DNA of 64,000 nt, taken from Sanghuangporus weigelae (Eukaryota; Basidiomycota; Agaricomycetes; Hymenochaetales; Hymenochaetaceae). The stretch covers positions 1,054,001 through 1,118,000 of the forward strand of contig CP137329.1 of the NCBI GenBank assembly GCA_033182465.1, given 5' to 3'. Shown here piece after piece: positions 6,491-42,556 of this stretch (position 1 is its first letter; each line of letters opens with the position of its first letter). The position numbers and the translations under genes are program-made. The notes below the pieces were generated by a model, which was given only the letters and a program-made list of their open reading frames with translations, did not search any database and had not been told where the DNA came from.

Positions 6491-6517
6491 CTCCCCCCTG
6501 ATCTGACACTTCTTCCT

Positions 6518-18770: not shown

Positions 18771-20017
18771 GATAGCAGCATAGGTGCTTTTAGCCAAGAC
18801 AGTAGCTGAGCTGACTTAGGCTTGGGTGTGGCTACATTACATGTACTATCTACTAATCAGACTTGAAACCACCCCGGTGACCATCCTCTGCTGAAATGTC
18901 ACCCAAAATCATATCTGGGCGAGGGCAAACAAGGTCGGCTCGGCCATCATGCACTCCTGCTGCAACTAAACTGAGCATGCCCACCAGGGCCACAGAAACA
19001 TCTCTCAGAGAAATACGAGTGTATGCACATGACGGTAGTCTTTTGTATGCAGCATCTCCCTACACAGCAGCTCTCATCACTTGTCCACAGTTCCCTCCTC
19101 ACCCTCACCAATCTCTCATCACCCACAGGCATGAGGGAACCCCCAGTTGTTGGGGACAGATCATCATGAGAGATGAGGCACCACAGTAAAGAGATAGAAG
19201 GCAGCAACGCATGTGAGGACTTACGGTTGAGTCGCCACTTGATCTCAAGCTATCACCATCTTTACAGCCACCATCTCTACAGCTTATTTTGAGCATTCAT
19301 TCATGCAACCCCGGCGACGTGGCAGAAAGCTGTCCAACAATTTATAGGAATGAATCATCACTATGAACAAGAAACTCAGTGCCTCTCAGATTGCAGCCTT
19401 GATTGACATACCCAAGACAACAGTTTTCTGGATAATACAAGAGTTCAAGCGCAATGGGACTGTTGCTGCACATGAACTTAGTTTTAGTAGAAGGCCTCGA
19501 GTGCTTAATTATATCCACACTGAGGTATGCGCATGTTGAAACCTGTCCTGGTAGCTGTTGGTTCACACCACGTAGTTCCTTTGCGGGTCACTAAGCAATG
19601 TCAATGATCGTTACATCGATGAGTTGAGGCTACTGCTCCAGGGAAGATGGGAGAAGGAGGTCTTGGATGCGACTATATGCAGGTCCTTGCTGCACGCTGG
19701 TTTCACACTTAAGAAGGTGGCTGTCTCTGTTGCTTTGCTTCCTCACACAGTCCATGCGAACTGAAATTGTCGTTGTCTAGTTATTGAAAAGGGCTCTCGA
19801 GCGGAATGAGACTCTGCGTGCACAGTACGTTGCACGTATCGCCTCTCGGTACACGGTGGAACAGCTGGTGTTTGTCAATGAGAGTGCTTGCAATTGGCAG
19901 GCTTTTCTTTGCAACACTGCTTGGGCCCTTGAGGGTCACCGTGCGTGTCGCAAGCAGTTTTTCAATAGGGGGAAATGGTGATTCTGCCTCTTGTAGCGTT
20001 GTAGTGCGCCGCACTTG

Positions 20018-20041
20018 CCTGTACCGGTACGTCGGTACAGG
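20018..20041. repeat. Subterminal palindrome of Q1
   Basis: CCTGTACCG and CGGTACAGG arms around a 6-bp centre, 20 bp inside the left end. It is conserved in Q2 (40460-40483) and Q3 (35747-35770). It may be a transposase-binding site; this is inference. Confidence 0.75.
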
Positions 20042-20187
20042 CCCCTCAGTACTCTGTACAGTATACCATCATGCGGCGACCGCTACACCTCCGCCGCTCC
20101 TTAAGACCTTCCAAACCGCCGCTCCTTGATTCGCGGCTCAACCAATACGTCCGCCGCCTCCCGTCCTTCAAAGACTTCCCAAACCGA

Positions 20188-21689
20188 TGAAGAGTAAGAC
20201 TAAAGCTTAGGAGCATACAAAGTCGTTACGACCAGTTCCGCGGTGTTCCGACTGGTTTCGCCCAGTTCCGACTGGTTTCGCTGGAGCAAGTGGACTTAGC
20301 AAGAACGCCATAGTTCAAATGGCACGTGCACCGTTCCATGATCGGCCATCATATCAGACACGACGGAAGAATCACGCGACGATCCTACACGCGTCAATCA
20401 CAAGTCTCCGGATCCCGGATCCGTACTCCTGACAAAGAGATTTGACCCTGCAGCGTCGTCCACAGTCCCTCTCCCATTCAAAATGTCGCAGATTTGCCCT
20501 GTAAGGCTAGCCGAAGTCTTTCCAAGTCTTTTCCCCTAGTTCCGACTCGTTCCGCTCAAAGACACCCGGTTCCGAAAGCTTTGCTTATGATCTCACTTTC
20601 TATATGCGTCCCTTTTATTTCTTTATGCTCTCGTTCCGACCATGCTTGGTATTGTTTCTTTCTGTTTTATGTGTCCCTTAACCATTCATATGCGCCCCAT
20701 TCCTTTGTAGATAAGTGATATGCGTTCCCCTTTTTCTTATGACTTATGTTTTCTGACCAATGGGAGGCTCAGTTTGGACGTTTAGTATAAATTTAGCACG
20801 ACTCTCGTAGTGGGAGGGACAGCTGAGTGGGAGCGAAGGAGCTCTTAGATCGTCTCAAGTCCCCCAGCCTCGAGTTCTTCTTGTTCGTAGAAAACTCTCT
20901 CGTCTCTAAAGCCTAATATACGATATTTCGTGTTCTGTACAGTTGATCGGTGACATCTCTTCGCAGCAGAGCCGTTCGTACGTTCGTATAGTTCGCCTGG
21001 TTCGTATAAAGGACTCCTCCTGTCTCTGTCACCCGGATCGAAACCGCATTGCGTGTTCCGATTGGTTTCGCTGGTTTCGCTCGTAACCCAGTTACTTAGC
21101 GTGCCGCGTGCTTTCGGTCTCGTAACACCTTCCCCTCTCCACTGTCGTCGGAAAAGGGCACCATATTACCCCTTTCCATCACCGTAAAGTCCCTCCGTCT
21201 CTTGTATCACGTTTGGGTCACCCAGTTACCGTCCCCGTCCATCGTACCGCGTTCGAATCGTTACGCCGCGTTCCGACACTTTAGACTCCGAGTGAGATCG
21301 GCTGCCGTCGCTTCCCAGTGTGTTAGCACGGTCGATTAGTCACGTTCGAGTTGGTGGTTCGACTAGCGTAGCCTTAGTTAGATCAGTTCTTGTTCCTCGT
21401 GTTAGTCGGCTTTAGTCCAGAGCTCGCAGTTGAGCCGGAGAGTCGATTTAGCCTTCGCACCGCCACCATCAATCTCGGAAGAAGCCCATCCTCGGAATCC
21501 TTCCTCGAGCGCTTCCCACGCGTTTCCTCAGCCCTCATACTACCCTTCTCTCGTATATTCCAGTATCCCTTCGTGTCCACTTGCCTTTGGTCTAGGTGTA
21601 TCTCTCTGCTGACTATTCAAAGGTATTCTAGGGCAGCCCCTCGAACTTTATATTCCCTGTCCAGTTTCAGAACGCCCACAGGAGTTTCA
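20188..21689 (+). mobile_element. Solo LTR (1502 bp) inside Q1
   Basis: It begins TGAAGAGTAAG and ends CAGGAGTTTCA, flanked by CCGA on both sides (20184-20187 and 21690-21693). Q2 gives the approximate empty site (AAACCAAGTACTC). It shares termini and an internal block (AGCCTTCG..CGCCACC) with the solo LTR at 28659. It is rich in GTTCCGA and GGTTTCGC motifs, with TATAAAT near 20788. A fossil LTR of an unassigned retrotransposon. Confidence 0.82.
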
Positions 21690-22085
21690 CCGAGTATGCT
21701 TGGCCAGCCGCACTTTCTGATACGCGGGCGCCTGGAACGTTGCAGCGGATGTATCGGCTACGGTGGCGGAAGGATATCGAACCGTATAGCCGATGGAATA
21801 TTCGTCGGCTCCTGTTGATTGGCTTATCCGACGTTGGGTAGTGGTTTTACAAGGTTCCAGGTACCACGTTTCATGTTCATACTATGCTGCTTCGTGCGCC
21901 GAGTCCGATTGTCGGATGCGGCGGCCACTCGCGTATTCCCCTTTTAGTATTATTGCCTCCCCTGACGTTTCATATTCGTGTGGTGCGACCACTTAGCGAT
22001 CCGAGCGCGCCCGATGATGTGATGCGCCACGCCAATCACCGCCAGCCCGATCAGCGCGCGCCCATGTCTTGGCAGCTTTGCGGCA

Positions 22086-23900
22086 CTGTAGCGCACTGGC
22101 TCCTCCTGTGCCAGTACACTCATACTATGGCTCCCTCTTACTGCAGATACCATATCCCAGCACTGCCGACACCTGAGAGTGTGAGGGCACACTCCTATTG
22201 CACTCGGGACATCATTTGAGCACGTATCCATTGATTCCAGCACACGTACTGTACTGCGGCGCCCTCCTATGACCCAAATTGATCCGCCGATGGCTCCCCG
22301 ACACTCAGACAGGTCCGCCGACAGCTCCTACCCAGCACCAGGCACTATAGGACACATCCCTCAGTGACTACGTGCCGCCGATCTTATGATTTACCATACG
22401 TACAGCCGTGCGGCGACTCTGGATGCCTCCGAGTCGGCCCCCCTTGGCGCCGATCAATGCGGCGGACACTCAGACATCCTCAGGTACCCTCGCCGACGCC
22501 TCCTACAGCTTACCAAGCAGTCCCCCATTGTCTAGGGAGCTATATATTGTCATATGTGCTTACATGCCTCATTACAATGTATCTGCCACCAGTCCGGCAG
22601 TCCCCCACAGCACTGCCGCTCCGGCCACTCATATTAGTCACTAGGGATCGCCCACACTCTGTATTGAGTGCCGCCAATGCATCGGACACCTCAGGGACAT
22701 CGGCTGATGCGCCCTTTGTCTCATATACGCGATATCAGCCTCCAATCATCGGTTCCGATGTTTCCCGACTTCCCCCCGTTGCGGCGGCCCCCATTAGACC
22801 ATGTATGGAAGGTAGGCATGTGGTACATCAGCGTGCCAAGCCACCGACTCGCGCCGCCAAGCCTAACTCCGCCGGCGCCCGTGTTATTGCAGATACTCAA
22901 TATTTCATGTGATTGGATGCCCCCCTCACGTTGCCGCTCTCAGATTTCACCTGGGCGCTCCGGCAGCGGCCCTTGGCGACCCAGATGACTCAGGAGATGT
23001 TGTCAGACAGTAGGATGTGTCGGCGACAGCAGTAGAGTATATATAGAGCTTATACTAGCTTGTAGACGACAGAATTCCAAGCCTAGCGAGGGTTCCAAGA
23101 GCATGTACCAGACTGAGCGCCAGAGTTCGAGATATCCCTCACTCTGAGTCTCCCCTCATGTACTGAGCCTCCCTCTTGACTATATACTATCCTTGACATC
23201 TCCTCTTGTTTGACTCCACATTCTACTTGCCTTCGCCGCCTCCGGTACGCCTCTGCCGCTCTGACGTTCAGTGAGTGAGTAGGGCTTGGGATTTAACCCT
23301 GAGCCTCCTCCCCACACTTTATACCTGTCCGGCGCCCCTCTATTCGACGTCGGCAACCCTTCGGCGACCCAGGCTTCTCATCAGACTCCCCTTCGGCGTC
23401 CTTTCCAGCCTTTCACTCCAGTTTATCCCATATATTGATCTTATACGGTCTTTTCCTTTCATCTATCACGTTTACGCTACTTTGGCAGATTCCTGCGGCC
23501 TCCCCCTCAGTCCGGCACCCCTCTATTCGACGTCGGCGGCCATCCGACGACCCAGGCATCCTATCAGATGACCCAGCGGCGCCTTCTCCAGCCACTCACT
23601 CCATTTTATCCTTTATATTCATCTTATATGCTTCTTCCTGTGGCCGAGTTTATACCACGTCGGCAGCCTCTTGTGATCCCCCCTTTTGAGCGGCGGCCCT
23701 GTTATCCTATTCCCTTTATCCAGCGGCATCCTTAGACCCATCCATTACGTCTCCGACGGTTCCTGGCACCTGCCGGGTAGTAGGTCTTTGAGAGTCTGAT
23801 AGCGTCGGCATCCCATTTTTGGAGGTCCCTTCATACAATCAGCACCCTTAGTAGGACGGACATCTGTAGCACCTTCAGATACGACACCGCCGACCGACAG
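22086..23900 (+). mobile_element. R1 element copy 2 (full length, 1815 bp) inside Q1
   Basis: Ends are CTGTAGCGCA and CTGTCGGTCG (right end, reverse complement). Flanks are CA (22084-22085) and CG (23901-23902). The empty site appears in Q3 (rc near 33180: TTTGCGGCGTGCCCC) and Q2 (near 41270). A direct repeat of about 120 bp starts at 23327 and again at 23510. CpG-rich and well kept compared with copies 1, 3 and 5. No coding function was recognised. Confidence 0.85.
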
Positions 23901-24182
23901 CGCGCCCCGATCTTCGGGTCCGCACCGATTGCGCGCCTGTGACGCGCCATCACTGTCGCCGCCTCTGTGACGCTCTTCCCCAGCATTCCCCAGTATATAT
24001 AGACCTCATGTATGTAGTGTTCAGAAGCAGTAGTTCGGAATAGATCTCAGTGCACTCCTCTCGTCTCTGTTAGCCCCTTTTTGCTCTCTATCGCCTTCGC
24101 CGAAGACCGTGTGCCGACACAAGACGCCGCCCCCGTTTAAGGGAATAACAGGGGCACGTGCTCACTCACCACTGCGCAAGTG

Positions 24183-24357
24183 ATCGGCAGAGCTATCCCC
24201 CGTCCTGGGAATCGGCAGCCCCATCGCCCTCTTGACAATCGGCAACACCGCCGCTCTCCTGGGAATTGGCAGCGCCATCGCCCCCTTAACAATCGGCGAC
24301 ACTGTCGCTCTCCTGGTAATCGGCGGCACCGTCGCTCTACTAGTAATCGCCACTGCC
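24183..24357 (+). repeat. 27-bp minisatellite in Q1
   Basis: About six imperfect units of 27 bp (clear unit starts at 24211, 24238, 24265, 24292 and 24319) of the form ATCGGCRRCRCCGYCGCTC + TCCTGGKA. The same array, decayed, lies in Q2 (about 41560-41690) and in Q3 on both sides of the Tc1 insertion (about 31290-31420 and 32770-32890). Confidence 0.8.
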
Positions 24358-24786
24358 CACAGGACTCGACAGCGCCGTCGCTCTACTACTTATTCGCAAC
24401 GCCGACATCTTGACTCGTCGGCGGCTCTGTCTCGTACATTATCGGCGGCGCCCCCTCTATACGCGGATCATACCATAGCCCTTACGATTGAGCTCTCCCC
24501 ACGACTGAGCGCGCATCCCGATCGGCAGCAGTGCTTCCGGGTCAAATTGTCCGCCACGGCACCGAGCTGTCCAGGAGGTTTAGCCACGAGTTGGATCCCT
24601 TCTTACCTCTCCGATCTTTGACACCGCCGACGCCTCCCTGTGGTCGAATGCCGTCGCCTTCGCCGCTGCTTAAGAGGGTCTGATAGTCTACAGCGTGTCG
24701 CAAGCTTCTGATTCACTCCATTAGCTTCTCTGTCTTGCCAGCTATCAGTCTTGATGGGACAATTGACTGCACCATTGTACAGGGCA

Positions 24787-27275
24787 CTGTAGTGGGTGGT
24801 GTGTGTCTCTGAAGTCACTACCAATGTCCGTCCTACTAAGGGTGCTAAATGTATGAAGAAACCTCTAAAAATGAGATGCCAACGCTATCAGACTCTAAAT
24901 CCCCACTACCCAGCAGATGCCGGGGACCATCAGAGACATGATGGAGAGGTGTAGAGATGCCAAAGTACGAAAGGAATAGGCTAATAGGGCCGCCGCTCGA
25001 AAGGGGGGATCACAGGAGGCTGCTGATGTGGTAAAAACTCGGACACAGGGTCAGCAGGAGCGTATGAGATGAATATAAGGGATAAAATGGAGTGAGTGGA
25101 TGGAGAAGGCGCCGCTGGGTCATCTGGTACTATGCCTGTGTTGCTGGATAGCCACCAACATCAAATAGAGGGGTACAGGAATGAGGGGGAGGCCACACGA
25201 GTCCGCTGAAGTAGCGTAAACGCGATAGGTGAAAGAAAAGGACTGTATAAGATGAGTATATGGACTAAGCTGGGGTGAAAGGCTGGAAAGGGTGCCACAG
25301 AGGAGTCTGATAGGAGGCCTGTGTTGCTGAAGGGTCGCCGACATCAGATAGAGGGGCGCCGACGAGGTACAAAGTGCGGGGAGGAGGCTCAGGGTTAAAT
25401 CCCGAGCCCTACTCACTCACTGAATGTCAGAGCGGCCGAGGCATATCAGAGGCAGTGAAGGCAAGTATAATGATGAGTCAAGCAAGAGGAGATGTCAAAT
25501 ATAGTATATAGTCAAAGGGGGAGCTCAGTACAAGAGGGGAGACTCAGAGTGAGGGATATCTTGAACTCCAGTGCTCAGACTGGTATATGCTCTCTTCCTC
25601 TAAGATGATCTCCTGTCTACCAACCTAATATAAGCTCTATATATACTCTGCTGCTGTCGCCGACATGTCCTACTGTCTGACAACATCTCCTGAGTCATCT
25701 GGGTCACCAAGGGTGGCTGCCGGAGCGCCCAGGTGAAATCTGCAAGCAGCAATGTGAGAGAGGCGTCCAATGGCATGGAATATCGAGTACAGTCATTTAC
25801 TGGTCCTTTAAACAGTACCATTCCTTTAAACACTCAAATTTCCTCCCTCAACTCTTCTTCCCTTGTCACGAAAAAAATCACACAGATGTAGAGAATATGT
25901 ACTAATGATAATACCAAATTTCAGAAAATTTGAGTGAGGCGTTCAGTGTAGAGAAATTGTGCACTGGCTAATTTGGTTGTATTTGGTTGAGTTTAATTTG
26001 CAACAATTGCTCTTGAGCTTGTTCTGGCCGATTTACATAGAAGACAGCTGTACATATCACTAAAGTATTGTCATGGGTGCATCTGTGCAAAGTTTGAAGA
26101 GAAAAAAGTTACTCTACGAATTAATGCAGGGGAAACAAACAGAAAGTGTGACAGATGGGAGGAGGGATTTTTACATGCTAAGATCGGCGGTTGTATTGCT
26201 GTACTCGCCGTACCCGAGAACTAGCGCCGTGACGGCAAACTCTAATGTCACACTGTGTTCAAAGGAGTGGTTTTTGTGACATTCTTGCATTTTTTTTCTT
26301 TCACCGATAATAATTTTTCCTGTACAATTTACAGCTTGAAAAAAATGTCAAATGTTGCCCTCATCAAGGGCTATCAGAATATGTACTTGAAATTTATAAA
26401 TCGGCTGTGTGGTGAGCTGGGCGAGTGCATCTGTATTGGGTGTTCAAAGGACCGGTAAATGACTGTATCTGCAATAATACAGGCGCCAGTGGAGTTGGGC
26501 TTGGTGGCACGAGTCGGCAGCTTGGCACGCCAATGTACCACATGCCTACCTTCCATACATGGTCTAATGGGGGCCACCGCATCGGGGGGAAGTCGGGAAA
26601 CATCAGAGCTGATGATCGGAGGCTAATATCGCATATATGAGACAAGGGGTGCATCAGTCAGTGTTCCTGAGGTGTCTGATACATCGGCAGCACTCAATAC
26701 AGAGTGTGGGTGATCCCTAGTGGCTAACATGAGTGGCTGGAGCGGTGGTGCTGCGGGGGACTGCTGGATTGGCACCAGATACATCGTAATGAGGCATGTA
26801 AGCACATATAACTATATGTAGCTCCCTAGGCAATGGGGGACTGCTTGGTAAGCTGTAGGAGGCATCGGCAAAGGTACCTGAGGATGTCTGAATGTCCGCC
26901 GCATCGATCAGCGCCATGGGGGGCCGACTCGGAGGCATCTAGAGTCGCCACAAGGCTGTACATATAGTAAATTGTAAGATCGGCAGCCTGTAGTCACTGA
27001 GAGATGTGTCCTATAGTACCTAGTGCTGGGTAGGAGTCATTGGCAGACCTGTCTGAGTGTCGGAGAGCCATCGGTGGATTGATCTGGGCCCTAGGAGGGC
27101 GCCGCAGTGCAGTACATATGCTGGAATTGGTGGAAACGTGCTCAAATGGTGTCTCGAGTGCAGTAAGAGTATGCCCTCACACTCTGAGGTGTAGGCAGCA
27201 CTGGGATATGGTATCTGCAGTGGGAGAGAGTCATAGTATGAGTGTACTGGCACAGGAGAGGCCAGTGCACTATAG
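24787..27275 (-). mobile_element. R1 element copy 3 (full length) in T1 exon 4, carrying a MITE
   Basis: Ends are CTGTAGTGGG (left) and CTATAGTGCA (right end, reverse complement). Flanks are CA (24785-24786) and TG (27276-27277), the two possible deamination products of CG. Removing the element and restoring one CG gives in-frame ...IVQG-AFNTKLF..., as in related transposases. Net length without the MITE is 1811 bp, equal to copy 2. It has lost many CpG sites. Confidence 0.88.
25790..26465. mobile_element. MITE with TA target duplication (676 bp) inside R1 copy 3
   Basis: Inverted repeats CAGTCATTTACTGGTCC... and CAGTCATTTACCGGTCC... are flanked by TA at 25788-25789 and 26466-26467. The empty site GAGTATCTGC is seen in R1 copy 1 near 6037. 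The TA duplication fits Tc1/mariner mobilisation. The interior is AT-rich with no transposase. Its termini differ from those of T1, FB and the Tc1 at 31422, so its helper is not in the window. Confidence 0.9.
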
Positions 27276-28658
27276 TGCATTCAATACTAAATTGTTCACG
27301 GAATTTATCGCCGGCCTTTTGGACAAAATGCATCCCTTCCCCAGCACCCAATCAGTCATTGTGATGGACAACTGCCTGATACACAAGGCTCCCGAGATTT
27401 GGGAGCTCATCAAATCTTGGTCTGTCTCACTAGCAATGCAAGTCGCAGCATATACTGACCCCTTTACTTAGGGGTGTCAGGCTTAAATTTCTTCCTCCTT
27501 ACTTGCCAGACTACAATCCTATTGAACTTGCATTCTCTGTAATCAAGTCTAGGTTAAAATGGCAGGGTCCTGGTCCTCAGGATGATGCTTCAGTTGTTGA
27601 GCAACTCTGCAGGCAGGTGTATTCCATTAATTCTTTGGATAGTTATTCCTTCTTTTGCCACTGTTGCTATGATGTGCTTGTATAGGCTGTTGAATCTGAA
27701 GATAGTGTATGCTTGTGGACTTTGGATCATCAATCTCCAGAGGGCTATTAAGCGAGCTGGGAACAAGTTTATAAGCAGCTACCTTCTTCTTCGTTGCCAT
27801 ATTGCATTTTTTTTCATCTCTTACCATCATGAGTCCCACCCCTAGAAAACTTGCAGCTCGCAAGACTGCAGTTCACAAGACTGCAGCTCCTAAGACTGCC
27901 AGGACAAAGCAGGCATCTGCCGTCACAAGAAACTCCTCTCCCCAAAAAGCAGCAACGGCCCTGGAGCCCCAGTAAGCAAATGACCCTCATTCAAACTCTT
28001 AAAATGCAGATGTCATTGCTGAAGGACCACAGAAATGAGGTCGGCCAAGGAAGGCAGAGTGGCCTGCTGTCAACAAGAATGATGTTGAAGAGATGGTAGT
28101 ACTGATAGTCTTGTCTTCCGGTATTGCACTCATACTTCGTAACAGAATAACATAGAAGCAGAGCCCACCGTGACAAAAGCAAGGGGCCGGAGAGCTGCTG
28201 ACAAGGAGCTGACATATCAATATGAAGAGCCCTATGATGAAGAACTATCACAACTTGATATTGCCTGAATGGCGAATGATGATCCGCGTCAAGAGTCAGA
28301 TACTGATGATCCTTGGGACTTTGATAATCTGTTGCTTGCAGCCAGTGCATAGACCATTATAGGAGTTTGTCAGTCTCTAATAATTTGATAGACTATACTG
28401 ACAATTTGGACCAAGAGTATAGATGCGACTCGTCAGTTGTATCTTACGTGTGTTTCATGGAGAATCTCGAATGTGAAAAAGAGGAGCAGTAAGCTCCTAA
28501 AGAAATGCGATCAACACTTGTCACTCTGGTTGATGATGGGTAGGCTTTGCGCAAAATGAATGTCAAACCTCAACACAGCATAATTGATGTGCATCAGAAC
28601 GTAGCAAGTATTCTTCAGTGCTATCCCACCTCAGTTACATTAGGCTACACTAGTCCGT

Positions 28659-30002
28659 TGAAGAGAGTTCCGACACGCTAAGTCCAGAATCAGGCACATG
28701 ATACATGTTCCGCTGGGTTCTGCATCGTAACAGCGAGATCCTGTGCGGATCGACTCACCCAAAGTTGGAAACGGCCATTAGGACTACTCTCAATCGATTC
28801 GTAAATGGGGACGCGCATGTGGTACTCGAAAGCCCAACGAAGGCTCGCTTCGGACGTATGAGCCGCCCATTCGACCCTACAAGGACGATATGGCCGACTC
28901 GTCCTATCGCTTGACCGAACCGAAGAACTGAACCATAGGACTCGGAGCTGATCCCCGACGCCTCTCAACCAATCTAATGTGTTGCGCTCTTTACGCGCGC
29001 TCAACATTTTGTTTTATGCTCTACGACCCTTATGCCCACCCGATATACTCAGCTCGCCATTTGTTCTCCATGCTTGCCCTCATGATATGCCTTCCAACTT
29101 CTCTTCGTTATGCACATCTTGCCATTTGTTTCCATACTTACCCTTGTGATATGCCTTCCAATTTCTCTTTGTTATGCTCCCTGATGCCTCAAAGGCTCGG
29201 GTCTGGACAATGTTATAAATAGGCGTGCTATTCGTGTAGTTGGGAGTTCAGTTCAGTATGGACCAGAAGCCCAGTTCCAGTCCAGCTCAGTCTCCTCAGC
29301 TAGCTACAGTCGCAGTTCTACTCGACTCACTCTGTACTCACCCGACTCACTCGTCTCCTTCGAATATACAATAGTTCTGTGCCATACGTCTTGTGTCCCC
29401 TGCCCTGCAGTCGCACCCAAGTCCTGTGTGATCAGTTCGACTCGTGTTGCCACTAGGGACACTTCTCTATCATCTCTACACTCATAATGCTCAAACTCAG
29501 CCGAGCATTCAGCGTAACACTTTGTTCCGCACCGCATCGCCTCGCCTTGCATCGTAACGCCGCGGAACTCGTCGTAACTCGCTGTATCGCATCGGATCCT
29601 CATATAGGATCATTACCATATTGTCCTCCGCTTGGAGCATCACTCTCTAAGCTTCGTCTCATCGTCTCACCGTCCCCAGGGTTCGAATCCGCCGTTGGAT
29701 TACCTGGAGGAAGCCTTTAGCCTTCGTATCGCCACCGCCGATCCCCCTCGCTTCGACTTCTCCTGTTTGCTTCTTCGCTTCTCCCCTACTCCAAATCTCC
29801 ACCCTCGCATACACCAGCAGCCTTCCAAGTCTCAACTCACCCCTTCCTTCCAATTCGACTCCGGAACTCGTCTTGTCTCTTCGGAACCCCTTTATCTCTC
29901 GCCCAAGGTCACCCTCTTCCGGTCTCCTCGTCTTGACTTACAGAACAGCCCCAATTCGAACTGTGACACTCCTCTGCTAACAGACCGTTCACAGGAGTTT
30001 CA
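28659..30002 (+). mobile_element. Solo LTR (1344 bp) inside G1
   Basis: TGAAGAGAG...CAGGAGTTTCA, flanked by CCGT (28655-28658) and CTGT (30003-30006). Removal restores the G1 reading frame. It is related to the solo LTR at 20188 through termini and an internal block. Fossil. Confidence 0.82.
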
Positions 30003-31421
30003 CTGTGGTTTAAGAAGATTGGAACAAAGATTCAACCACGGTATCTCGAATCCAATGTAGATCTTGATGAGCTTGTGCAAGGGTTCAAGAAGTATCTTGA
30101 GGAGCTGAAGAAGAAGTGTAAGGTTGATAGTGCAGGCGATATTGTGCTTATGAACATGAATGATAAACAGGTAAATGTGATCATTTGCCTTTCTCTCTTT
30201 TATGTGTTGATGCATGAATTCCATTCTGTTTAGAAGGGTTCTAAATGCTCAGGAAGTGTACTTCAGAACATGACCAAACCAACCAGTGCGGCCAAAGCAA
30301 TGAAAGGTGACCTGAATGCAATGCTCACATCTCATATCAAGGAGATCAAGCAGAACCTATGGTGTAGCACACATCCGGAGGAAGTTTGTTATATTTATGC
30401 TGATGGCACCTATATATATTATACAATGAAGAATTATTTTGATCATGTAAGGCTCCTAGTACGTGTTTTACTCTTATCTATGTGATTCTGGAGGCTTATG
30501 AGCTTTTGTAGCTAAGTAAAGCTCCGGGCGTGACAGCCTCGCAGGTTCCCGGGCAGCTGAACTTGCTCAACTACCACAAATCAAAGCGATCTGTACAGAC
30601 CACCTTAGGTTCAACCGCTATAGGCATGCAGCAGGGGCTTGCAAACCAAGCTGGAGCTGGTCAAGCACAAGCAGATAGGGATCTGCAGACCAAACCAGGT
30701 GTAGAAAATTCCAGTGCTGGAAGGACTCGCCATGCATCACTATCGCCCACCTCCCAGCCTGCATGAGACAGGCCGAGGGATGACAGAAGGTACCGTGGAT
30801 CATCGCATGGAGGGAAGTGTCATTGTGGCAGAAGCCGATCCATCAGAAAGAGGGGTCATAAATGTCGCTATTGATCCTCGTCATCATTGGGGTGGGTGGA
30901 CTCCGAAAGCTCTGCAGAAAGGGGTTATCATAATTGCAGTTCGTTATCTGAGGATAACTACAGGTGCCACAGTTATCGGAACAGACACTCTGCATCGCAT
31001 CATAGTAGATACTATTGCAAAGGTCACCACAACAGAACTCGAGGCTCCCTGTCCACTGTAGACTATCAGACCCTCTTGAGCAGCAGTGAAGGTGGCAGTG
31101 TTCGACCACAGAGAGGCGTCAGCGGTGTCAAAGATCAGAGAGGTAAGAAAGGGTCCAACTCATGGCTAGGCCTCCTGGACAGCTTGATGCCACGGCGAAT
31201 GATTTGACCTGGAAGCACTGCCACCAATTGGAATGCATGCTCAGTCATGGGGGAGAACTCAATCGTAAAGACTAGAACACAGTCGGCCTATGAAGGGGTG
31301 CCGCTAATAGCGCATGGGACAGAGGTGCCGACAATCACTAAGAGAGTGACGTTGTCACTGATCACCACAAAGAGAACTCGGTCGGTGATCGAGTGTAAGG
31401 TCTCAGCGTCATGGATAAGTA

Positions 31422-32747
31422 CAGCTGGGTATCAAAAGTGACCATCACTGTCACACTTTCCTGTAAGTCGCGTCGTGCTCATGCAACTTCTATGCTGCAC
31501 CACTCACGCAAAACACAATTTTATACAAAATTAAGTATGTATATACATTGTTTAGCATCTAATAATATTCCTTCCACCATTAGTATTTCGTTGGTCCACC
31601 TTTAGCATTAATAATTGCCTGTGCACGGCGAGGCACTGATAAAATATAGTTATTGATATGATTGATTAGTATTACCTCCCAGGCGTCGAGAACAGCCTTT
31701 CTGAGCTCTTCAACTGATGTAGGGTGATGACGACAGGCCCATATGTTCCGTTTAAGGTCCAACCAGCAAGGTTCGATAGCGTTAATGTCTGAAGAAGTGG
31801 GTGGGTGTGGGAACAGTGAAATGCCATACTCTTCAAACCAGTGTTGCGTCGTTTTTGCCGTATGGCACCATGCATTGTCTTGTTGAAATGTAACAGACCA
31901 ATTGCGTCGACGGACCTCGTTGTAAAAATCCAAAAGACAGCCATCCAATACCTGCTCAATATATTTTTTCGCAGTCATTCCTCCTCCCTTGCCCCCAGGA
32001 TACTCGAGCACAATAAGCGGACCCTTCCTACCATACATGATGCAACCCCAGACCATAACACATACAGAGGACTTCTTAAAGGATGGTATAACGCAGTCCT
32101 CATGCCAGGTTTCATCAGAGCGACGTGTACAATAAATGGTGCCAGGGTTTGAACCAAGGTAAACATAGCACTCATCTGAGAAAATGACTGACTTCAACTG
32201 CCTCTTCGTAATCTTCACCAGTTCCTTTGCACGTGCTAGCCGTAAGACCCTATAGGCCTTGTTGATGTATGGAGCACGTCGGGCCTTCCTCCACTTGAGT
32301 CCTGCAGCGTTTAGCTCACGTCTGATAGTCTGACGGCTCACTTTGACATCAAGACTTTGTGCCAGAGTTTTGAGAGGTGCAAAATGGTTTTTTCTTGCAG
32401 TTCGTATGAGCAGGCGATGGATGTGATCACGGATCTTCTTCGGACGGCCAGTTCGGGGCGAGTTTTTCGTTGTACCGGTTTTTTTGTAGTGTGCAAAAAG
32501 GTCGTTTACGGTCGTCCGAGGTATGCCAAATGCCTTTGCTGCTTGAGACTTGTTTTTGCCGCCAATAATAGCCCCAATAATCTGGTTTTTCACCGGGGAG
32601 GCGAGCTGAGACCTTAGGGAGTGTGTTTGGGTCATGAAAGTAGGGAGGGGGGCAGGACGGAAGTGAGTGGAAACTGACAAAGTGAGACGACACACGACGT
32701 GACACACATTTTGTGTGACAGTGATAGTCACTTTTGATACCCAGCTG
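31422..32747 (-). mobile_element. Tc1/mariner transposon, apparently complete (1326 bp)
   Basis: Inverted repeats starting CAGCTGGGTATCAAAAGTGA match over about 35 bp with one mismatch. TA flanks lie at 31420-31421 and 32748-32749. It sits in the 27-bp minisatellite of Q3. It contains one uninterrupted transposase gene. It is the only element in the window that looks like a complete cut-and-paste DNA transposon. Confidence 0.95.
31580..32635 (-). CDS. Tc1-like transposase (351 aa), intact
   Basis: ATG at 32635 (MTQTHSLRSQ) is chosen because it gives the usual length of about 340-350 aa; the open frame extends upstream into the inverted repeat, which is unlikely to be coding. Domains are a paired HTH (GKNKSQAAKAFGIPRTTVND and SLDVKVSRQTIRRELN, with the linker motif GRPKK between them) and a DDE catalytic core with FSDE, QQDNAWCHTA and NAIEPCW, spacing DD34E. 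No intron is needed. It acts in the nucleus, binds the inverted repeats and inserts at TA. No disabling change was seen, so it could be active or very recently active. Confidence 0.95.
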   Translation of the reverse strand: MTQTHSLRSQLASPVKNQIIGAIIGGKNKSQAAKAFGIPRTTVNDLFAHYKKTGTTKNSPRTGRPKKIRDHIHRLLIRTARKNHFAPLKTLAQSLDVKVSRQTIRRELNAAGLKWRKARRAPYINKAYRVLRLARAKELVKITKRQLKSVIFSDECYVYLGSNPGTIYCTRRSDETWHEDCVIPSFKKSSVCVMVWGCIMYGRKGPLIVLEYPGGKGGGMTAKKYIEQVLDGCLLDFYNEVRRRNWSVTFQQDNAWCHTAKTTQHWFEEYGISLFPHPPTSSDINAIEPCWLDLKRNIWACRHHPTSVEELRKAVLDAWEVILINHINNYILSVPRRAQAIINAKGGPTKY

Positions 32748-33909
32748 TAGTAGAGCGATGGCGTCATCAGGTTGTGCGAGCGTTGGTGATCACCAGGAGA
32801 GTGACAGTGTCGCCGATTACCAGGAGAGCGACGGTGTCACCAATTGTCAAGAGGGTGATGGCGTTGCCGACTCCCAGGAACGGGGATAGCTCCGCCGATC
32901 ACTTGCTCAGTGGTGGGTAAGCACATGCCCCTGTTATTACCTAAACGGGAGCGGAGTCTTGTGTCGGCGCGCGATCCTCGGCAGAGGCGATAGGGAGCAA
33001 AGCGACTAACAGAGAGGAGAGGAGTGCACTTGGGTCTATTCTTGACTTCTTCTAGACACTACATACATGAGGTCTATATATACTAGGGAATACTGGTGAT
33101 GAGCGTAACAGAGGCAGCGACGGTAACGGCGCATCACAGGCGTGCGATTGGGGTGGGCCCAAAGATCGGGGCACGCCGCAAAGCTGCCAAGACACGGGCA
33201 CGCGCTGATCGGGCTGGCGGTGATTGGCGCAGCACATCATATCATTGGGCATGCTTGGATCACTAAGTGGTCGCACCACATGAATATGAAACGTCAGAGG
33301 AGGCAATAATACTAAAGTGGGGAATACGCTAGTGGCCACTGTATCCAACAATGGACTCAGCATACAAAGTGGCATAGTATGAACATGAAACGTGGTACCT
33401 TGGACCTTGTAAAACCTCCAGCTGACATCAGATAAACCAATTGACGGGAGCTGACGAACATTCGATTGGCTATATGGTTCGATATACTTCCGCCGCTGTA
33501 GCAGATACATTCGCCGCAACGTCCCAAGTGCCCGCATATCGGAAGATGCGGCTGGCCAAGCGTACTTGGTTTGGAAAGTCTGGAGGGTCCAGGTACCTCA
33601 TCTATGATGCCAAGACAGGTTGGGGAGGCCGCCCAGAGGTGCGAAGCGACGACACCGGGCACACGGAAAGAGGCAACTGAAAACGTGACGGTACATTGGC
33701 ACCGTGGAGCGGCGGCGGTCCAACGGATGTCGCCCGTCTGCTTGAACTGATGCCCGGAGTAACTTCATTTTTCTTGACTATCTGGAGGCTTGCCTAAGGG
33801 TGTCTGGTTCAAGAGAGGCCGAACCCGCTTTCAAATGAGGGGAGTCAGCGGCCCTATTGGTCGAGCGGCGAATCAAGGAGCGGTGGTCGGATAGTCATAA
33901 GGAGTGGCG

Positions 33910-35694
33910 GTGTAGCGCACTGGCCCCTCCTGTGCCAGTACACTCATACTATGGCTCCCCCTATACTGCAGATACTATATCCCAGCACCGCTGACACCTC
34001 AGAGTGTGAGGGCATACTCCTATTGCACTCGGGACATCATTTGAGCACGTATCCATTGATTCCAGCACACGTACTGTACTGCGGCGCCCTCCTATGACCC
34101 AAATCGATCCGCCGATGGCTCTCCGACACTCAGAAAGGTCCGCCGACAGCTCCTACCCAGCACCAGGCACTATAGGACAGACCCTCCAATGATTACATGC
34201 CGCCGATCTTACGATTTACTATACGTACAGCCTTGCGGCGACTCTGGACACCTCTGAGTCGGCCCCCTATGGCGCCGATCGATGCGGCGGACACTCAGAC
34301 ATCCTCAGGTACCTTCGCCGACACCTCCTACAGCTTATCAAGCAGTCCCCCATTGTCTAGGGAGCTATATATTGTCATATGTGCTTACATGCCTCATTAC
34401 GACATATCTGCCACCAGTCCGGCAGTCCCCCACAGCACTGCCGCTCTGGCCACTCATATTAGTCACTAGGGATCGCCCACACTCTGTATTGAGTGCCGCC
34501 GATGCATCGGACACCTCAGGGACATCGGCTGATGCGCCCTTTGTCTCATATACGCGATATCAGCCTCCGATCATCGGTTCCGATGTTTCCCGACTTCCCC
34601 CTGACGCGGCGGCCCCCATTAGACCATGTATGGAAGGTAGGCATGTGGTACATCGGCGTGCCAAGCCACCGACTCGCGCCGCCAAGCCCAACTCCGCTGG
34701 CGCCGTATTATTGCAGATACTCGATATTCCATGCTATTGGACGCCCCCCTCACGTTGCCGCTCTCAGATTTCACCTGGGCGCTCCGGCAGCGGCCCTTGG
34801 CGACCCAGATGACTCAGGAGATGTTGTCAGACAGTAGGATGTGTCGGCGACAGCAGTAGAGTATATATAGAGCTTATACTAGCTTGTAGACGAAAGGATT
34901 CCAAGCCTAGCAAGGATTCCAAGCCTAGCGAGGGTTCCAAGAGCATGTACCAGACCGAGCGCCAGAGTTCGAGATATCCCTCACTCTGAGTCTCCCCTCA
35001 TGTACTGAGCCTCCCCCTTGACTATATACTATCCTTGACATCTCCTCTTGTTTGACTCCACATTCTACTTGCCTTCGCCGCCTCCAGTACGCCTCTGCCG
35101 CTCTGACGTTCAGTGATCCGGCGCCCCTCTATTCGACGTCGGCGGCCATCCGACGACCCAGGCATCTCATCAGACTCCCCTTCTGCGTCCTTTCCAGCCT
35201 TTCACTCCAGTTTATCCCATATATTGATCTTATACGGTCTTTTCCTTTCATCTATCGCGTTTACGCTACTGCGGCGGATTCCTGCGGCCTCCCCCTCAGT
35301 CTGGCACCCCTCTATTCGACGTCGGCGGCCATCCGAAGACCCAGGCATCCTATCAGACGACCCAGCGGCGCCTTCTCCAGCCACTCACTCCATTTTATCC
35401 TTTATATTCATCTTATACACTTCATACCTTCCTGTGGCCGAGTTTATACCACGTCGGCAGCCCCCTGTGATCCCCCCTCTCAAGCGGCGGTCCTGTTATC
35501 CTATTCCCTTTATCCAGCGGCATCCTTAGACCCATCCATTACGTCTCCGACGGTTCCTGGCACCTGCCGGGTAGTAGGTCTTTGAGAGTCTGATAGCGTC
35601 GGCATCCCATTTTTGGAGGTCCCTTCATACATTCAGCACCCTTAGTAGGACGGACATCTGTAGCACCTTCAGATACGACACCGCCGACCGACAG
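33910..35694 (+). mobile_element. R1 element copy 4 (1785 bp) inside Q3
   Basis: Ends are GTGTAGCGCA and CTGTCGGTCG (reverse complement). CG on both sides (33908-33909 and 35695-35696). Removing it with one CG restores the Q subterminal sequence (GGAGTGG-CG-GAGGTG). It is very similar to copy 2 in the same orientation, with a short tandem duplication (GGATTCCAAGCCTAGC) near 34900 and one internal gap. Confidence 0.86.
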
Positions 35695-35746
35695 CGGAGG
35701 TGTAGCAGTCACCGCACGATGGTATACTGTACAGAGTACTGAGGGG

Positions 35747-35770
35747 CCTGTACCGATGTACCGGTACAGG
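35747..35770. repeat. Subterminal palindrome of Q3
   Basis: CCTGTACCG and CGGTACAGG arms, as in Q1; 19 bp inside the right end. Confidence 0.7.
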
Positions 35771-36308
35771 CAAGTGCAGCACACTACACCGTGAGGAATA
35801 AAATTTGTGATTATCCTTTGGTGGAGATTTGGCTAAAGATGTGCGATGATCACATGGAACAAGGGTGCGACAACATGAACTACTCAGTGCTGGCCAATGT
35901 TCTGAAAAGTAATGGATATCCGCATATCAACCCGATTCTACTCGGGTTGACAACCGACAAATTGATTTCAATGGCATCACAGTCAGGTGTTCACATCACA
36001 TACGGTCTTGCATCCGCCATGCTTTTCTATGCCCGGGAGGACATTGGCTAAACAGACAATTACATTCAATAATAAACATGATATGTTTTACATACAGTCA
36101 TGCACACAATAAATAAGGGTATGGAAAGAAAGTGAGAACAAACTCCTGGTTGGAGACGATCCGAAATCAATAATGTTCTCAGAAATTCCTATCAAAAAAC
36201 TGGTATGCATGTCAAACAAACTGCTGTAACAAAACAAGAATAAGTCAATTTCTAAAAATTCCACAAACTCAAGGCCCAAACACAAGGAGCAAATCTAGAT
36301 CATGTTAG

Positions 36309-37470
36309 TTACAACCATAAAAAATGGCGCGGAGGCCCAAATACCTTAAAATGTTTTGCAGAGCTTGCCACCGGTGAAGAACCATCCAACATTGAGGATT
36401 CACTCTCGTTGCTCATATACATGTCGGAAGTCTCAGCATATTCTCCATCAGAATCATCATCCGTATCACTATCCATGTTCGCTTGAGTGAGAATGAGAGA
36501 ACTACGATTTGGGTTGTCCAATTCCTGATCTTCAAATTTGACCCACCTGACCCGATCCTGCAGAATTGTGAACACTGAGGATTGACCAAAAGACCAAAAA
36601 CGCAGTTTCACTTCAATTGGTTTGTTGCCTTACTCGTCGTCATGCCTCGCCTTAGAGTCATGCGTGTCTCCTCGGAACTGATGGGAATTATGTTAATCCT
36701 TCATCGCCACCACTTTATGTTCAGTCTCACTACCAGAGGTCTCCAGTGCGAAAACCAGAAAGGATAGGATCTTAATCAAGTCACCATCATTTGGAAAACA
36801 TTGAAGTGCCTGCTTTAGGTGACAAAATTGATCCTCTGCCAGATCTATATCTGGCTTAAAGGCGCTGCACTCCTTGGTACTTTTGAGCTGATCTTCTGCA
36901 AGTTTAGCCCAATCAACCAGCTTTTGGCAGAAACACTGTGATAACCATGCCAATTCTGTTCTCTGAATGAGATCGTGCTCGAGTTTGAGAAATTTCCAGA
37001 GCTTCTGCATGAGAATCTCAGCATTAATACGTCCGTCGGAAGTCTTTGCTTCCTCCAGTCTCCAGTTGGCACCCTCAGGAATCTGCTGGTTCATAGATTG
37101 TAGACTATCTACATAAGTGGTGACTGCGTTATACACAATGGTCAAAGCTCTCTTGAGAAGTTCTGGATTTGCCTCGTTTGCTTTTATCCAGAGTACCTAT
37201 TAAACATAACATATCAAACCTCTGATTATACCAAAAAAAGGGGGAAAGATTCCTACGTAATTGAGGTAGCCCTTGTCTTTATTCAAATGCTCTCTCTGTT
37301 TTTGTAATTCCTCACGTATAAATGCAAAATTTTCTTTGGTATTCTTAACTCCAGATCCAATTCACTCATGCATGGACATAAAACATTTGTGCATGCTATC
37401 TGCAAACACCTTCTCCTTCTTCTTCACTGCTTCTGCGTCTGGAGATGCAGACTTCGCAGAAGTTACTAGC
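36309..37470 (-). pseudogene. G3: multi-exon fungal gene of unknown function (partial or decayed)
   Basis: The sense strand reads ...EAVKKKEKVFADSMHK...REELQKQREHLNKDKGYLNY, then a 60-nt GT-AG intron (37197-37256), then VLWIKANEANPELLKRALTIV... to about 36696, and an acidic block with DSDTDDDSDGE near 36470. An in-frame TGA at 37362 stands where CGA (Arg) is plausible. Further stops separate the last two blocks, so an unrecognised intron or decay must be assumed. No known domain; helical and charged. It may be the 3' half of G2, which lies upstream on the same strand. Confidence 0.5.
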
Positions 37471-38169
37471 CTAGATGCTGATCAAAAGAGTTCGAGAGTG
37501 TACATACTACAGCATTCAACTGAGGAAACGTACCCAGGCTGACTTTCTCCAGCTTGGGAATTTTTCTAGAATTTAAGGCTAGGTGGAGGCATTTAGTTGT
37601 TTTCAGTGCTTTGAACAATAACAGCTGATACTCACAGCCTCTAACAGTAGCTCGAAAGGAGTACATGACACTGCTCAGACAGAGTTTAAGTGGGGGGAGA
37701 TCTGTGTAGGAAGGGGGAGGAGTTACCAATGATAGTGGGAAGAGGCAAAGTGGGTACTGGGGAACATTCATCCCTGGCTCCCTTATATACAGAGACAACA
37801 AGCCGAATCTTACAAAGGCTCAGCTGACTAACATCTAGGGTCACCTGACCTAATCTCTATTTGCACTTTCTTTGAATCTTTTTGGAGCAAAGAATACAGA
37901 GCTTGGACTAAAGTACACAATGGGAGCAATCATCTCCTCTTCTTCGCTTCCCTCTCTTCCTCTACACTCGACACCTCTGTACTCGGTCTCGCCTTCTCTT
38001 TGTCCTTCCCCTCTACTACACTTCGTCACTCCCTTCTACACTCAATTTGATTGCTTCAAGCTCGCTTGGTCGAGGTACTCGGCGGACCACCCTCTTTGAC
38101 ATAAACACATCGCTAGTCCACATCAGGATTATGGGTGAGCATTTTTTTGAGTCACTGAGTAGACTGAAA
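37471..38169. other. Stretch between G3 and G2, no clear gene
   Basis: Contains TC/CT-rich tracts (37930-38040) and short open frames but nothing recognisable. A possible GT-AG intron of G2 lies near 38105-38170. If G2 and G3 are one gene, this stretch would be intron or inserted DNA. Confidence 0.35.
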
Positions 38170-38178
38170 ATCACGTGG

Positions 38179-38214
38179 CCCTTCCCCTTCCCCTTCCCCT
38201 TCCCCTTCCCCTTC
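38179..38214 (+). repeat. (CCCCTT)n microsatellite
   Basis: About six repeats of a 6-bp unit. On the minus strand it encodes alternating Lys and Gly in G2 exon 3. Confidence 0.9.
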
Positions 38215-38952
38215 TCTTTCTTTGGCTCCTTTGGCCCATACCCAAACTTGAGACCTCCGAACTGATCCTGATCTTTCTCCATATTGTAGGAGATTTTACA
38301 CAAAAGATGCCTATCCCTCTTGGATATTTCAACCTGCTCCACCAAGATGTCCATAGAATAATAAGACATTCCGATCTCTAAGGGATGCGCTGCATCGTTA
38401 CCAAGTTGTTGAATCGGATTCTTTTTTATGAAGAAATATAAGACCGCTATACAATCAACCCCTTCTTTCGGCGGGAACACCCGCAGAAAGCACTTGAATG
38501 CTCATATCTGATCTTCCCGCTGTGCCCGTAGGCTCATTGCCATAGTGTCAAGTGAGTGCTTCAAAGGACTTATACACGTTTGCATGGCCTTCTGCAGTGC
38601 CTTCACTATAGCTTTGGCTTCCGGTTCCTTCTCCTCCTCCACCGTAAGATCCCCGAGGGGAATAAGAAGACTCGCCAAATGCGAAAGGAAAGTAATTGGT
38701 TTGAGTTTGCCATACTGGTCAAAGCAAGTCAAGAATGCTCTTGGCCTCACATCATTGCCGCTATTGTCAAGAATGCCTCCATTCTCTCTACCAATCTCGG
38801 TGATTATACAGCCAATTTGTGCAAATATTTGAAGAACGATGTCCAAACCAACCCTTTCTTCGATGGCCAGATCTGCCGTCATCTCCTAAGAGAATTTAAG
38901 CAACTATAAGTCCTTGAAAGAAAGTGCTAAAACTCACTTCCGTTGTAGTGTG

Positions 38953-40448
38953 CTGTATGATCGATAGGGTGTGTGGACGATCGGACTAGGTCTGTAGGTG
39001 CAATCCTAGCAGACTAGGGTGTTTGATCCTATAGGGAGCAAGCGAGAACAGATCGGGGTAACCAAACAAGGAAGGGTGATTATGAAGACTTCCCTGCGAT
39101 TGACTGAGGCTCCGGCCTACTCTGTGAAAACCGTCGTCGGTTGGAATGCCTCCGGCCAGAATGGTCGGGGTGAACTATTGAAGAGGTGGATGTGAATAGG
39201 TGTCTAGGTCCGTACTTGTGTGACCAAGCAATGACAACCTATCTAAAAGGGGAAGAAAAGGGGGGGAGCAAATACACGTAGGCAAGATGTAATACTCAAT
39301 GGTCGTCTAGAGAGACTAATCCGGATGTGCTGCGGTGAACTGAGTGAATACTTCAGTGACTTGATCACCTTGGAGATGAGTCGATGGAGAAAGAAGACAA
39401 GCTGAGTGTATCCGAGTCACTCTCAGGATGTCCAGACTAGTCTAGACAAGGAAGACGAGACACCCAAAATAGGTACTACGTCTATCTATGAATGACAGAG
39501 TCGGTCAGGATGGTCTGAGGGGCTTCGGAGCAGAAGATGTGTGTGCTGAACAGATCTCTGATATTCGCTATCTGAAAACTACAACATCTGGGTGGGTTTT
39601 ATAGACTATGTGGGTCCAAAACATGTACAAAACAACTGATCTGGGACTAGGGGAGGATTGTGACAAGACGTGAGATGAAACACAATAAAACCGCAACAAG
39701 GAGCGTGAAACTGACAAGACAGAAGTCTAGCGGACTACAGAAACTGTAAAACAAGATGAAATCATAGTAAGGAGTGTGAAACTGACATGATAAGGGTCAG
39801 ATGGACTGCAAGGAACTGTGAAACGACATGAAAACTGTCCAGGAAGGGTCCTCCGAATGCCACACTCAAGTTGGCGAACAAACCAGACGGAGTGACCAAG
39901 CCGATGTACCAATCGGCGAACTCTGATTGGAAGTCCAAACCTCGGAGGCCACTTCAGCAAAGTCCGGACAATGGAGCGCACCTCGTGGAAAGTCTAGGTT
40001 GAAGGTACGCGACCATTTGGTACCTCAAAACAGGTGGGAACGGTCCCTGGCGATGTGAAACGTTGACAAAAAGGCCTAAGGTCCCCTCAGGAGTCTGGGT
40101 CCAGGCCTCGGAGTGCCAATATCCGCTCGGGTGAATAAAGTGGAGGTTGGCAAGTGGTAGTGTGACAAAGTATGGACAACGAAATATAGCACAGTATTAG
40201 CGGGTCTTCAGGGTCTCGGAGTGTAACATATGTGCAAAGGAAGGTGAAATAGCATGAACCGAAATATGTACAAAGTCTTGGGTGCGTCCTAGGATATGGT
40301 GGGGCGCTCGGAAGGATCGGATCAAGTCGTATATACCCTTTGTGACTGTTGGAGTCGCTCAGGCAGCTGATACACCAGTGTGTTAGACACTGGTGAAGTA
40401 TGTACAATACTCGACCGCTGACACCCAGAATAGCGGTGTGCGCTATAG
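38953..40448 (+). mobile_element. S: third CG-target element type (1496 bp) inside the end of Q2
   Basis: Ends are CTGTATGATC and CTATAGCGCA (right end, reverse complement). Flanks are TG (38951-38952) and CA (40449-40450). Without it Q2 starts TTGTAGTG-CG-CCACACCTGCC, as in Q1. It shares only the end motif with Q and R1, not its body. No coding region was recognised. Confidence 0.8.
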
Positions 40449-40459
40449 CACCACACCTG

Positions 40460-40483
40460 CCTGTACCGGCACGGTGGTACAGG
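40460..40483. repeat. Subterminal palindrome of Q2
   Basis: CCTGTACCG left arm with a slightly decayed right arm (TGGTACAGG). Confidence 0.65.
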
Positions 40484-42556
40484 CCCCTCAGTGCCCCATA
40501 CAGTATACCATTGTATGACGAGTGCCACACCTCTGTCGCTCCTTATGACTTTCAAAGCACTGCTCCTTGATTCGCCACTCAACTAATAGAGCCGCTGCCT
40601 CCCCTCATCCGAAAGCGGGTTCGGCCTCTCTTGAACCAGACACCCCTAGAAAAACCTCCAGACAGTCAAGAAAAATGAAGTTACTCCAGGCATCAGTTCA
40701 AGCAGCCTGGCGACGTCTGTCAGGCCACTGCCGCTCTGCAGTGCCAACGGGCCATCACTTTCGCAGCTGCCTCTTTCAGCGTGCCCGGCGTCGCCACTAC
40801 GTATCTCTGGGCGACCCCTCCAATCCATCTTGGCATTGCAGACAAGATGTACAGACCCTCCAGACTTCCCAAACCAAGTACTCTTGGCCAGCCGCGCGTT
40901 CTGATACACGGGTGCTTAGAACACTGCAGCGGATGTATCTGATACAGCGGTGGAAACATATCGAATTGTATAGCTGATAGAATATTCGTCGACTCCTGTT
41001 AATTGGCTTATCCAACATCGGTTAGAGGTTTTACAAGGTCCCAGGTACCACGTTTCATGTTCATACTATACTGCTTCGCATGCCGAGTCTATTGTCGGAC
41101 GTGGCAGCCGCTTGCATATTCCCCATTTTAGTACTATTGCTTCTCCTGACGTTTCATATTCGTGTGGTGTGACCACTTAGCAATCTGAGTGTGCCCGATG
41201 ATAGGATACATGGTGTCAATCACCGCCAGCCCGATCGGTGTGGGTGCATGTCTTGGCAGCATTGTGGTGCACCCCGATCTTCAGGCCTGCCCTGATTGCG
41301 TGCCTGTGACGCGCTGTTACCATTGCTGCCGCTATTACGCTCTTCACTAGTATTTTGCAGTATATATAGACCTCGTGTATGTAGTGTTCAAGAGCAGTAG
41401 TCCAAAATAGATCATCAGAGCAATCCTCGCTCACCTGTTACCTCTTCTGCTTTCCATTGCCTCCATCGAAGATCTCATGCCAACACGAGTTGCTGTCCCG
41501 ATTGAGTAATAACAGGGGCACGTGGTTGCTCCGCCGCTCCATAATCGATTGGCAGACCTACCCCTCATTCTGGGAATCACAACACTGTCACTCTCCTGGT
41601 AATCGGTGAAACTATCTCTCTTCTCGTGACCGCCCCCCCCTCTTGAACAGATCAACGGTGCTGTCACTCTTCTGGAAATCAGTGACACTGACAGCTTTGA
41701 AGCGACCACCAATTGGGTCCCCTTTGGGGTGATCGGTGATGACATCATCCTCTTTCTTTGTATCCGTCGGTACCTCTTTCCTCGACGGTACCAATGGCAT
41801 TCCCTTTTACGCCGACCACAACCTATTCATTACAATTGAGCTTTCCCCTGCAATGACGTACGTTGGCCGATCATCGGCAGTGCTTCCGGGTCAAATTGCT
41901 CCCCGCAGCGTTGAGTTCCCTAGGCACCTAGGCCCAAGTTGGTACCCTTCTTACCTCTCCGACCTTTGACATTGCTGACGCCTCTCTGTGGTCAAACGTC
42001 GCTGCCTTCGCCGCCGCTTGAGAGAGTCTGATAGTCTATACCATCCTCATGATGTTAAATTGATGTGATGATTCTCTGAACTCATTGACCTCAGTGCACA
42101 TTGTGTTGGCAAGCTGCAACGCATGCACGCTTGCCTTAAACAAAGTGTGAATGCAAGGCACTACATGCTCAACTGCATCCCGATACCCCTGGATGTAATC
42201 AACATTGCTGTCCTGAGCTCCCTCAACTTTCAATACAGCCTTGTTCCATTCATATATTACGCCTTCTAAATCAGACGCAATGACTTATACCCAATTATAA
42301 GTACAATGAGAATGAACTCTACATAAGAGAAGATACTTACATTCAAACTCTAGAATCCGTAGATCTAAGACAATTTTAGAACAAGTCAAGGAGAATGGAG
42401 GATGAGGACCCATATAATGCTGTGTCCTAGTGTTCGATGGACATGGCGGTCATGGTCAGAGGGGAACAGATATCAACATCGATCGATCTCATGGGAAAGC
42501 AAAGTCATGCCATGAGACCAAATAGATATTTATAGATGCTTCATCAAAAAGAAGCA

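Follow-up and report, generated by a model that had tools for sequence, protein, structure and literature searches.

The 64,000-nucleotide stretch of Sanghuangporus weigelae DNA analyzed here (the window; G000:C12:1054001-1118000, part of a 33.87-Mb, 13-contig genome) is made up of repeats nested in one another, among which we recognized single insertion units with five different bodies, termed R1, Q, S, T1 and T2. An earlier account of the window, drawn from its letters alone (the original prediction), had described R1, Q and S as three bodies with shared ends inserted as a group. This was confirmed, with seven insertions of these bodies placed within 19997-42043 of the window. The first of these, Q1 (20000..24692, plus strand), is flanked by GCGT on both sides and has two further units nested within it, namely T1 (20188..21689, plus strand, 1502 bp, ends TGAAGAG..GTTTCA, flanks CCGA/CCGA) and R1-2 (22087..23899, plus strand), whose flanks, GCAC/GCGC, differ by the decay of one CG. 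R1-3 (24788..27274, minus strand, flanks GCAC/GTGC) is divided by a 0.67-kb insert at ~25790-26464, and is followed by T2 (28659..30002, plus strand, 1344 bp), which again has the ends TGAAGAG..GTTTCA and lies between CCGT and CTGT. Q2 (31057..35788, minus strand, flanks ACGG/GTGG) contains both R1-4 (33911..35693, plus strand, flanks GCGG/GCGG) and a Tc1-type element, and Q3 (38944..42040, plus strand, flanks CCGT/CCAT) contains S (38954..40447, plus strand, 1494 bp, with a TATA box on the minus strand and flanks GTGC/GCAC). The center of the flank is CG, CA or TG in all seven pairs from Q1-Q3, R1-2 to R1-4 and S. Two incomplete R1 copies were also found: the left half only of R1-5 (42556..43370, minus strand), with GCGC at its sole surviving end, and a fragment that retains the right half together with part of the left (5030..6239, minus strand), whose right-end flank is ACGC in the plus-strand reading.

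A comparison of flanks across the genome revealed that these insertions duplicate a 4-bp target, NCGN, the variable first base of which belongs to the target. For R1, the four bases before TGTAG were compared with the four bases after GACA in 30 genome copies. The target-site duplication (TSD) was exact over 4 bp in 23 of these, one side had CA for CG in five and two were mismatched (L021 and L032), and none of the 30 gave an exact match over 3, 5, 6 or 7 bases. Among 20 correctly paired copies of Q, 13 TSDs were exact, six showed a single CG-to-TG/CA change and one (L005) was unmatched. This tally counts five duplicate loci once and excludes three rows that were wrongly paired and 12 that lacked a right end; it should be noted that two of its loci, L053 and L055, have common flanks and are possibly one event that was copied. 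The paired copies of T1 and T2 (seven, with one wrongly paired row excluded) had exact TSDs in six cases and one CG decay in the seventh, and NCGN was also present at 5/5 of their left ends without a right end. The original prediction had instead proposed a 2-bp CG duplication in which the preceding N was the terminal base of the element; the longer duplication, an outcome that it had itself named as contrary to its proposal, places this N within the target. In two places, one with R1 beside R1 (L016) and one with R1 beside Q (L032), a single 4-bp NCGN lies between the neighbors, as if the newer copy had inserted in the TSD of the older one.

Within the flank, only the CG is constant. The left end of R1 occurs 168 times in exact form in the genome, and in 164 of these a pyrimidine-purine (YR) step is found at the CG positions. 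The first 100 listed of the 164 comprised 93 CG, 3 CA, 4 TG and no TA, against a background in which CG constitutes 3.8% of the dinucleotides of the window and 5.4% of those in all DNA examined, so that the genome-wide tabulation bears out the CG target of the original prediction. On the right side, 97 CG, 2 TG and 1 CA were seen in the first 100 listed of 110 flanks, a number which is not the total of right ends, as the pattern used required the third flanking base to be a purine and left the second free, and a pyrimidine at the third was invisible to it. The right end common to T1 and T2 was found at 64 places, of which 50 had CG, six TG, six CA, one TA and one GT, under a pattern in which the seventh flanking base additionally had to be A, C or G. 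Furthermore, R1 avoids T at the first position of the target (2/100 listed right flanks) and A at the last (1/100 listed left flanks), giving the pattern V-CG-B, where V excludes T and B excludes A; T at position 1 and A at position 4 were each encountered in only 1/36 exact TSDs of R1 and Q. A target of the form VYRB has been described for prototype foamy virus (PFV), and T and A are disfavored at the respective positions in four retroviruses with 4-bp TSDs (PMC4422553). R1 and Q conform to such a palindromic V-YR-B target with a 4-bp stagger, as the product of an rve-type integrase would, and the T units do so only in part.

Uninterrupted sisters, in which the flanks are joined over one copy of the TSD, were recovered for 21 of 36 chosen R1 and Q insertions. 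The printed alignments of these 21 (up to two each) contained no doubled site or excision footprint, and in a few of the sisters the site itself had changed through CG decay, other substitutions or small indels. In the window itself, eight of the nine insertions (Q1-Q3, R1-2 to R1-4, S, T1 and T2) have an uninterrupted sister, Q3 being the only one for which none was found. These sisters carry one site with an intact CG, apart from two of the three sisters of R1-4, which read GTGG (L043 and L006; the third, L054, is GCGG). The single site is GCGC in the sisters of Q1 (L064) and R1-2. Where the flanks of the insertion have decayed, the sisters read GCGC for R1-3 (L064) and S (L052), GCGG for Q2 and CCGT for T2 (both L027). 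The empty sisters of these four keep an intact CG where the flanks now read CA or TG, which shows these flanks to derive from CG by decay and supports the deamination (a C-to-T change on either strand) suggested earlier. Changes of CG to TG or CA make up 36% of the base differences in pairwise comparisons of the 30 R1 copies.

The five bodies are 1.3-1.8 kb in length, and it is the ends rather than the overall sequence that they share. R1 and Q are typified by TGTAG/TGTNR-like ends, and the minus strand of S starts with TATAGCGCAC, which is near the TGTAGCGCAC of R1. NTGTAG-like ends had been taken to define the group; the group is wider, with T1 and T2, absent from the earlier list, having TGAAGAG..GTTTCA. 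A few copies begin with TATAG or finish with ATA, which we take as mutation. The TG...CA ends with a short inverted match are a feature of long terminal repeats (LTRs), the inverted match extending over only ~3-5 bp when the first 20 bases were compared without gaps. The word TATAWAW (W being A or T), a candidate for an internal promoter, was detected at 40-57% of the length in 5/5 bodies, for which we estimate ~0.37 occurrences per strand by chance, and R1 has a second such word at 26%. Those of R1 and Q are self-complementary, and hence the strand is clear for S, T1 and T2 only. The R1 copies are uniform and full length (1754-1836 bp in 30 copies), and those of T1 mostly span 1-1502. R1 repeatedly contains an open frame of 266 aa (in eight of 40 rows listed), which has a mild codon-position skew (177/131/207) and gave no match in a Pfam search; no coding content was found in the R1, Q, S, T1 and T2 bodies.

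Several other elements lie in or next to these units. The 0.67-kb insert in R1-3 (25790-26464) has inverted ends, ACAGTCATTTACYGGTCC, adjoining TA, and has the appearance of a mariner miniature inverted-repeat transposable element. The Tc1/mariner-type element in Q2 (31421-32747) has a 417-aa frame with matches to HTH_Tnp_Tc3_2 and DDE_3. The broken R1 near the start of the window is flanked by Copia sequence at 1-4439 and 6238-10676, a perfect 4.4-kb inverted pair that may have arisen either by a recent palindromic duplication or through the assembly. Elsewhere in the genome, T1 is broken by R1 at T1 position ~1331-1334 in both L030 and G000:C2:2379942, with R1 in opposite orientations, so that the two events were probably independent. 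A further T1 (C6:611846) likewise breaks off at 1334, a place for which the listing shows no R1 left end. One R1 right end (G000:C9:2116256) lies only a few bases past a match to the Plavaka domain (C9:2115910-2116251), and this R1 is thus probably within that transposase gene. A search for RNA families gave a single sub-threshold small nucleolar RNA match (28197-28242), which is not within the elements.

Longer copies with the same ends were also sought. A set of 100 of the 168 R1 left ends was paired with listed exact right ends up to a limit of 20 kb, which gave a right end for 65 and none for 35; the resulting lengths were 1.58-2.0 kb in 49 cases, 3.1-3.45 kb in seven and other values in nine. 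No autonomous copy was recognized among these 65 intervals, consistent with the non-autonomous character noted in the original prediction. Within the 3.1-3.45 kb class, two intervals hold Q (C1:3301287 and C5:2689701), two hold T1 (C5:450243 and C2:1658507), one holds another R1 left end (C5:388604) and the remaining two are without assigned content. Intervals of 14.06 and 14.08 kb (C1:1726592 and C2:1102946) each contain an rve match belonging to the Gypsy group with a 1534-aa frame, the most abundant one here and the one to which most of the 150 scored rve matches belong; the rve is opposite to the R1 orientation in both, on account of which we read them as nested Gypsy insertions. More generally, the rve matches (best 150 of 248 candidates) displayed no consistent co-location with R1, Q or T copies when compared by eye only. 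The copies of T2 (best 40 of 63 candidates) and S (best 40 of 163) were in single or nested places. Among the best 40 of 127 candidates for T1 there were 17 full-length copies, 98-100% identical to the query and including the copy in the window; the nearest pair on the same strand (C2:311787 and 315807) has a target-type flank, ACGC, after its first member.

The V-CG-B pattern, taken together with the CG-centered 4-bp TSDs of Ginger1 and Phygy, both of which have Gypsy-type integrases, points to an integrase of the rve type, and the LTR-like anatomy (TG...CA ends, no long inverted repeats and a possible TATA box at mid-length) combined with an integrase-type target favors solo LTRs. We therefore regard R1, Q, S, T1 and T2 as solo LTRs of one or more CG-requiring Gypsy-like groups, an explanation that we consider to have an even chance of being correct, and in which we infer the type of the enzyme, the identity of the units as LTRs and the loss of the internal region. 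Under this explanation, an rve integrase of the retrovirus/Gypsy type would cut with a 4-bp stagger and demand CG at the center of the target, Gypsy-like retrotransposons would integrate at NCGN sites, and recombination between the two LTRs would then delete the inside and leave a solo LTR, with full-length copies now being extinct or very rare in the genome.

Several observations weigh against this explanation. Among the copies checked, no two-LTR copy with gag-pol was found for the R1 or T ends, and, judged by loci and coordinates, no full-length relatives of Q and S were seen either. A YR step is absent at only 4/168 R1 left ends, although an inside region ending in YR would escape this count. 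The 64 T right ends displayed no constant flank of the kind formed by a primer site, though the 7-base CCAATCA occurs twice, and 62/64 have CG, CA or TG. None of the 17 full-length T1 copies forms an LTR pair by coordinates, and the right flank, known for 13 of them, is CG in 12 and CA in one. No internal Gypsy sequence was linked to the R1, Q, S or T ends. The window does contain a full-length chromodomain Gypsy element (43674-55875) with two 100% identical 1.5-kb LTRs; its TSD is the 5-bp GCTGC, without CG, and its polyprotein shows 80% identity to a protein of Sanghuangporus sanghuang. Finally, the T sites are looser than those of R1, with T at position 1 in 16/64 and A at position 4 in 10/64, such that the V...B part was not seen in them, and this counts against a single common enzyme for all five bodies. 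The missing full-length partners in such young families are the strongest counterpoint.

This same lack sustains the alternative that the units are non-autonomous, LTR-like DNA transposons which from the outset possessed neither an internal region nor a second LTR and owe their mobility, whether by excision or by copying, to a Ginger- or Gypsy-type integrase supplied in trans from another locus; we deem this possible but doubtful. The checked R1 and T copies are single, each with its own target flanks, the young T1 copies are unpaired, no autonomous copy is readable in the 65 R1 intervals, and Ginger1 has TGTNR ends with CCGG/CCGT TSDs of 4 bp (PMC2836005). However, Ginger1 has inverted repeats of 40-270 bp as opposed to the ~3-5 bp seen here, the autonomous partner was not found, and no doubled site appeared in the alignments printed for the 21 insertions whose joined flanks are spanned by a sister. 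It is rather unlikely, in our estimate, that we are dealing with a class of gene-free, LTR-like single units, the several unrelated bodies of which have only their ends and target in common and depend for movement in trans on an integrase accepting almost nothing but CG, perhaps through recognition of CpG or of methylated CpG; CpG decay is visible in the genome. Membership in a non-rve superfamily of DNA transposons appears improbable: PlavakaA, for example, has TGT..ACA ends, and there are eight Plavaka-domain matches in the genome, but its TSD is of 2 bp (PMC12730594) rather than 4 bp, T1 and T2 do not begin with TGT, and V-CG-B is an integrase-like pattern. The 2-bp CG duplication with NTGTAG ends is hardly tenable, for although CG alone is constant in the flank, copy after copy has an identical base preceding TGTAG and following the right-hand CG, in keeping with the 23/30 exact 4-bp TSDs of R1, and the uninterrupted sisters mostly keep the same bases.

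Retroviruses show a preference for YR, whereas the nearly absolute need for CG seen here, within a 4-bp target of retroviral type, is a far stricter condition; should the enzyme be found, it would be a natural integrase requiring CpG. Given that the strict site reveals the original base, each insertion serves as a built-in gauge of CpG decay. Such families are also easily labeled 'LTR/others' in annotation; the S. weigelae genome paper lists 1360 pieces of this category amounting to 1.62 Mb (PMC10803629), which presumably include the R1, Q, S and T families.

Within the open-licence library searched, we saw no report of fungal elements that target NCGN. The original prediction had placed a 2-bp CG duplication outside any superfamily that could be named; CG-centered 4-bp TSDs are already known from Ginger1 and Phygy. 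For Ginger1, the published TSDs are CCGG in 75% and CCGT/ACGG in 24% of cases, along with TGTNR ends and inverted repeats of 40-270 bp (PMC2836005). The CG-centered 4-bp TSD and the TGTNR-type ends of R1 and Q resemble this, whereas the units described here lack such long inverted repeats and any transposase that we could find, and have TSDs beyond CCGG/CCGT. PlavakaA, also from Agaricomycotina, shares the TGT..ACA ends and differs in its 2-bp TSD (PMC12730594). PFV and murine leukemia virus (MLV), with their 4-bp stagger, share the V-YR-B target of R1 and Q, but in the latter the YR is narrowed almost wholly to CG. The Phygy elements of Physcomitrella, which are Ty3/gypsy LTR elements, prefer NCGN insertion sites (PMC6317226), and are thus similar in both site preference and LTR-type organization. 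Full-length polyprotein elements are known there, whereas only single LTR-like units were found in this mushroom. Solo Ty3/gypsy LTRs in general are flanked by a TSD of 4-6 bp around a single LTR, to which the 4 bp observed here correspond.

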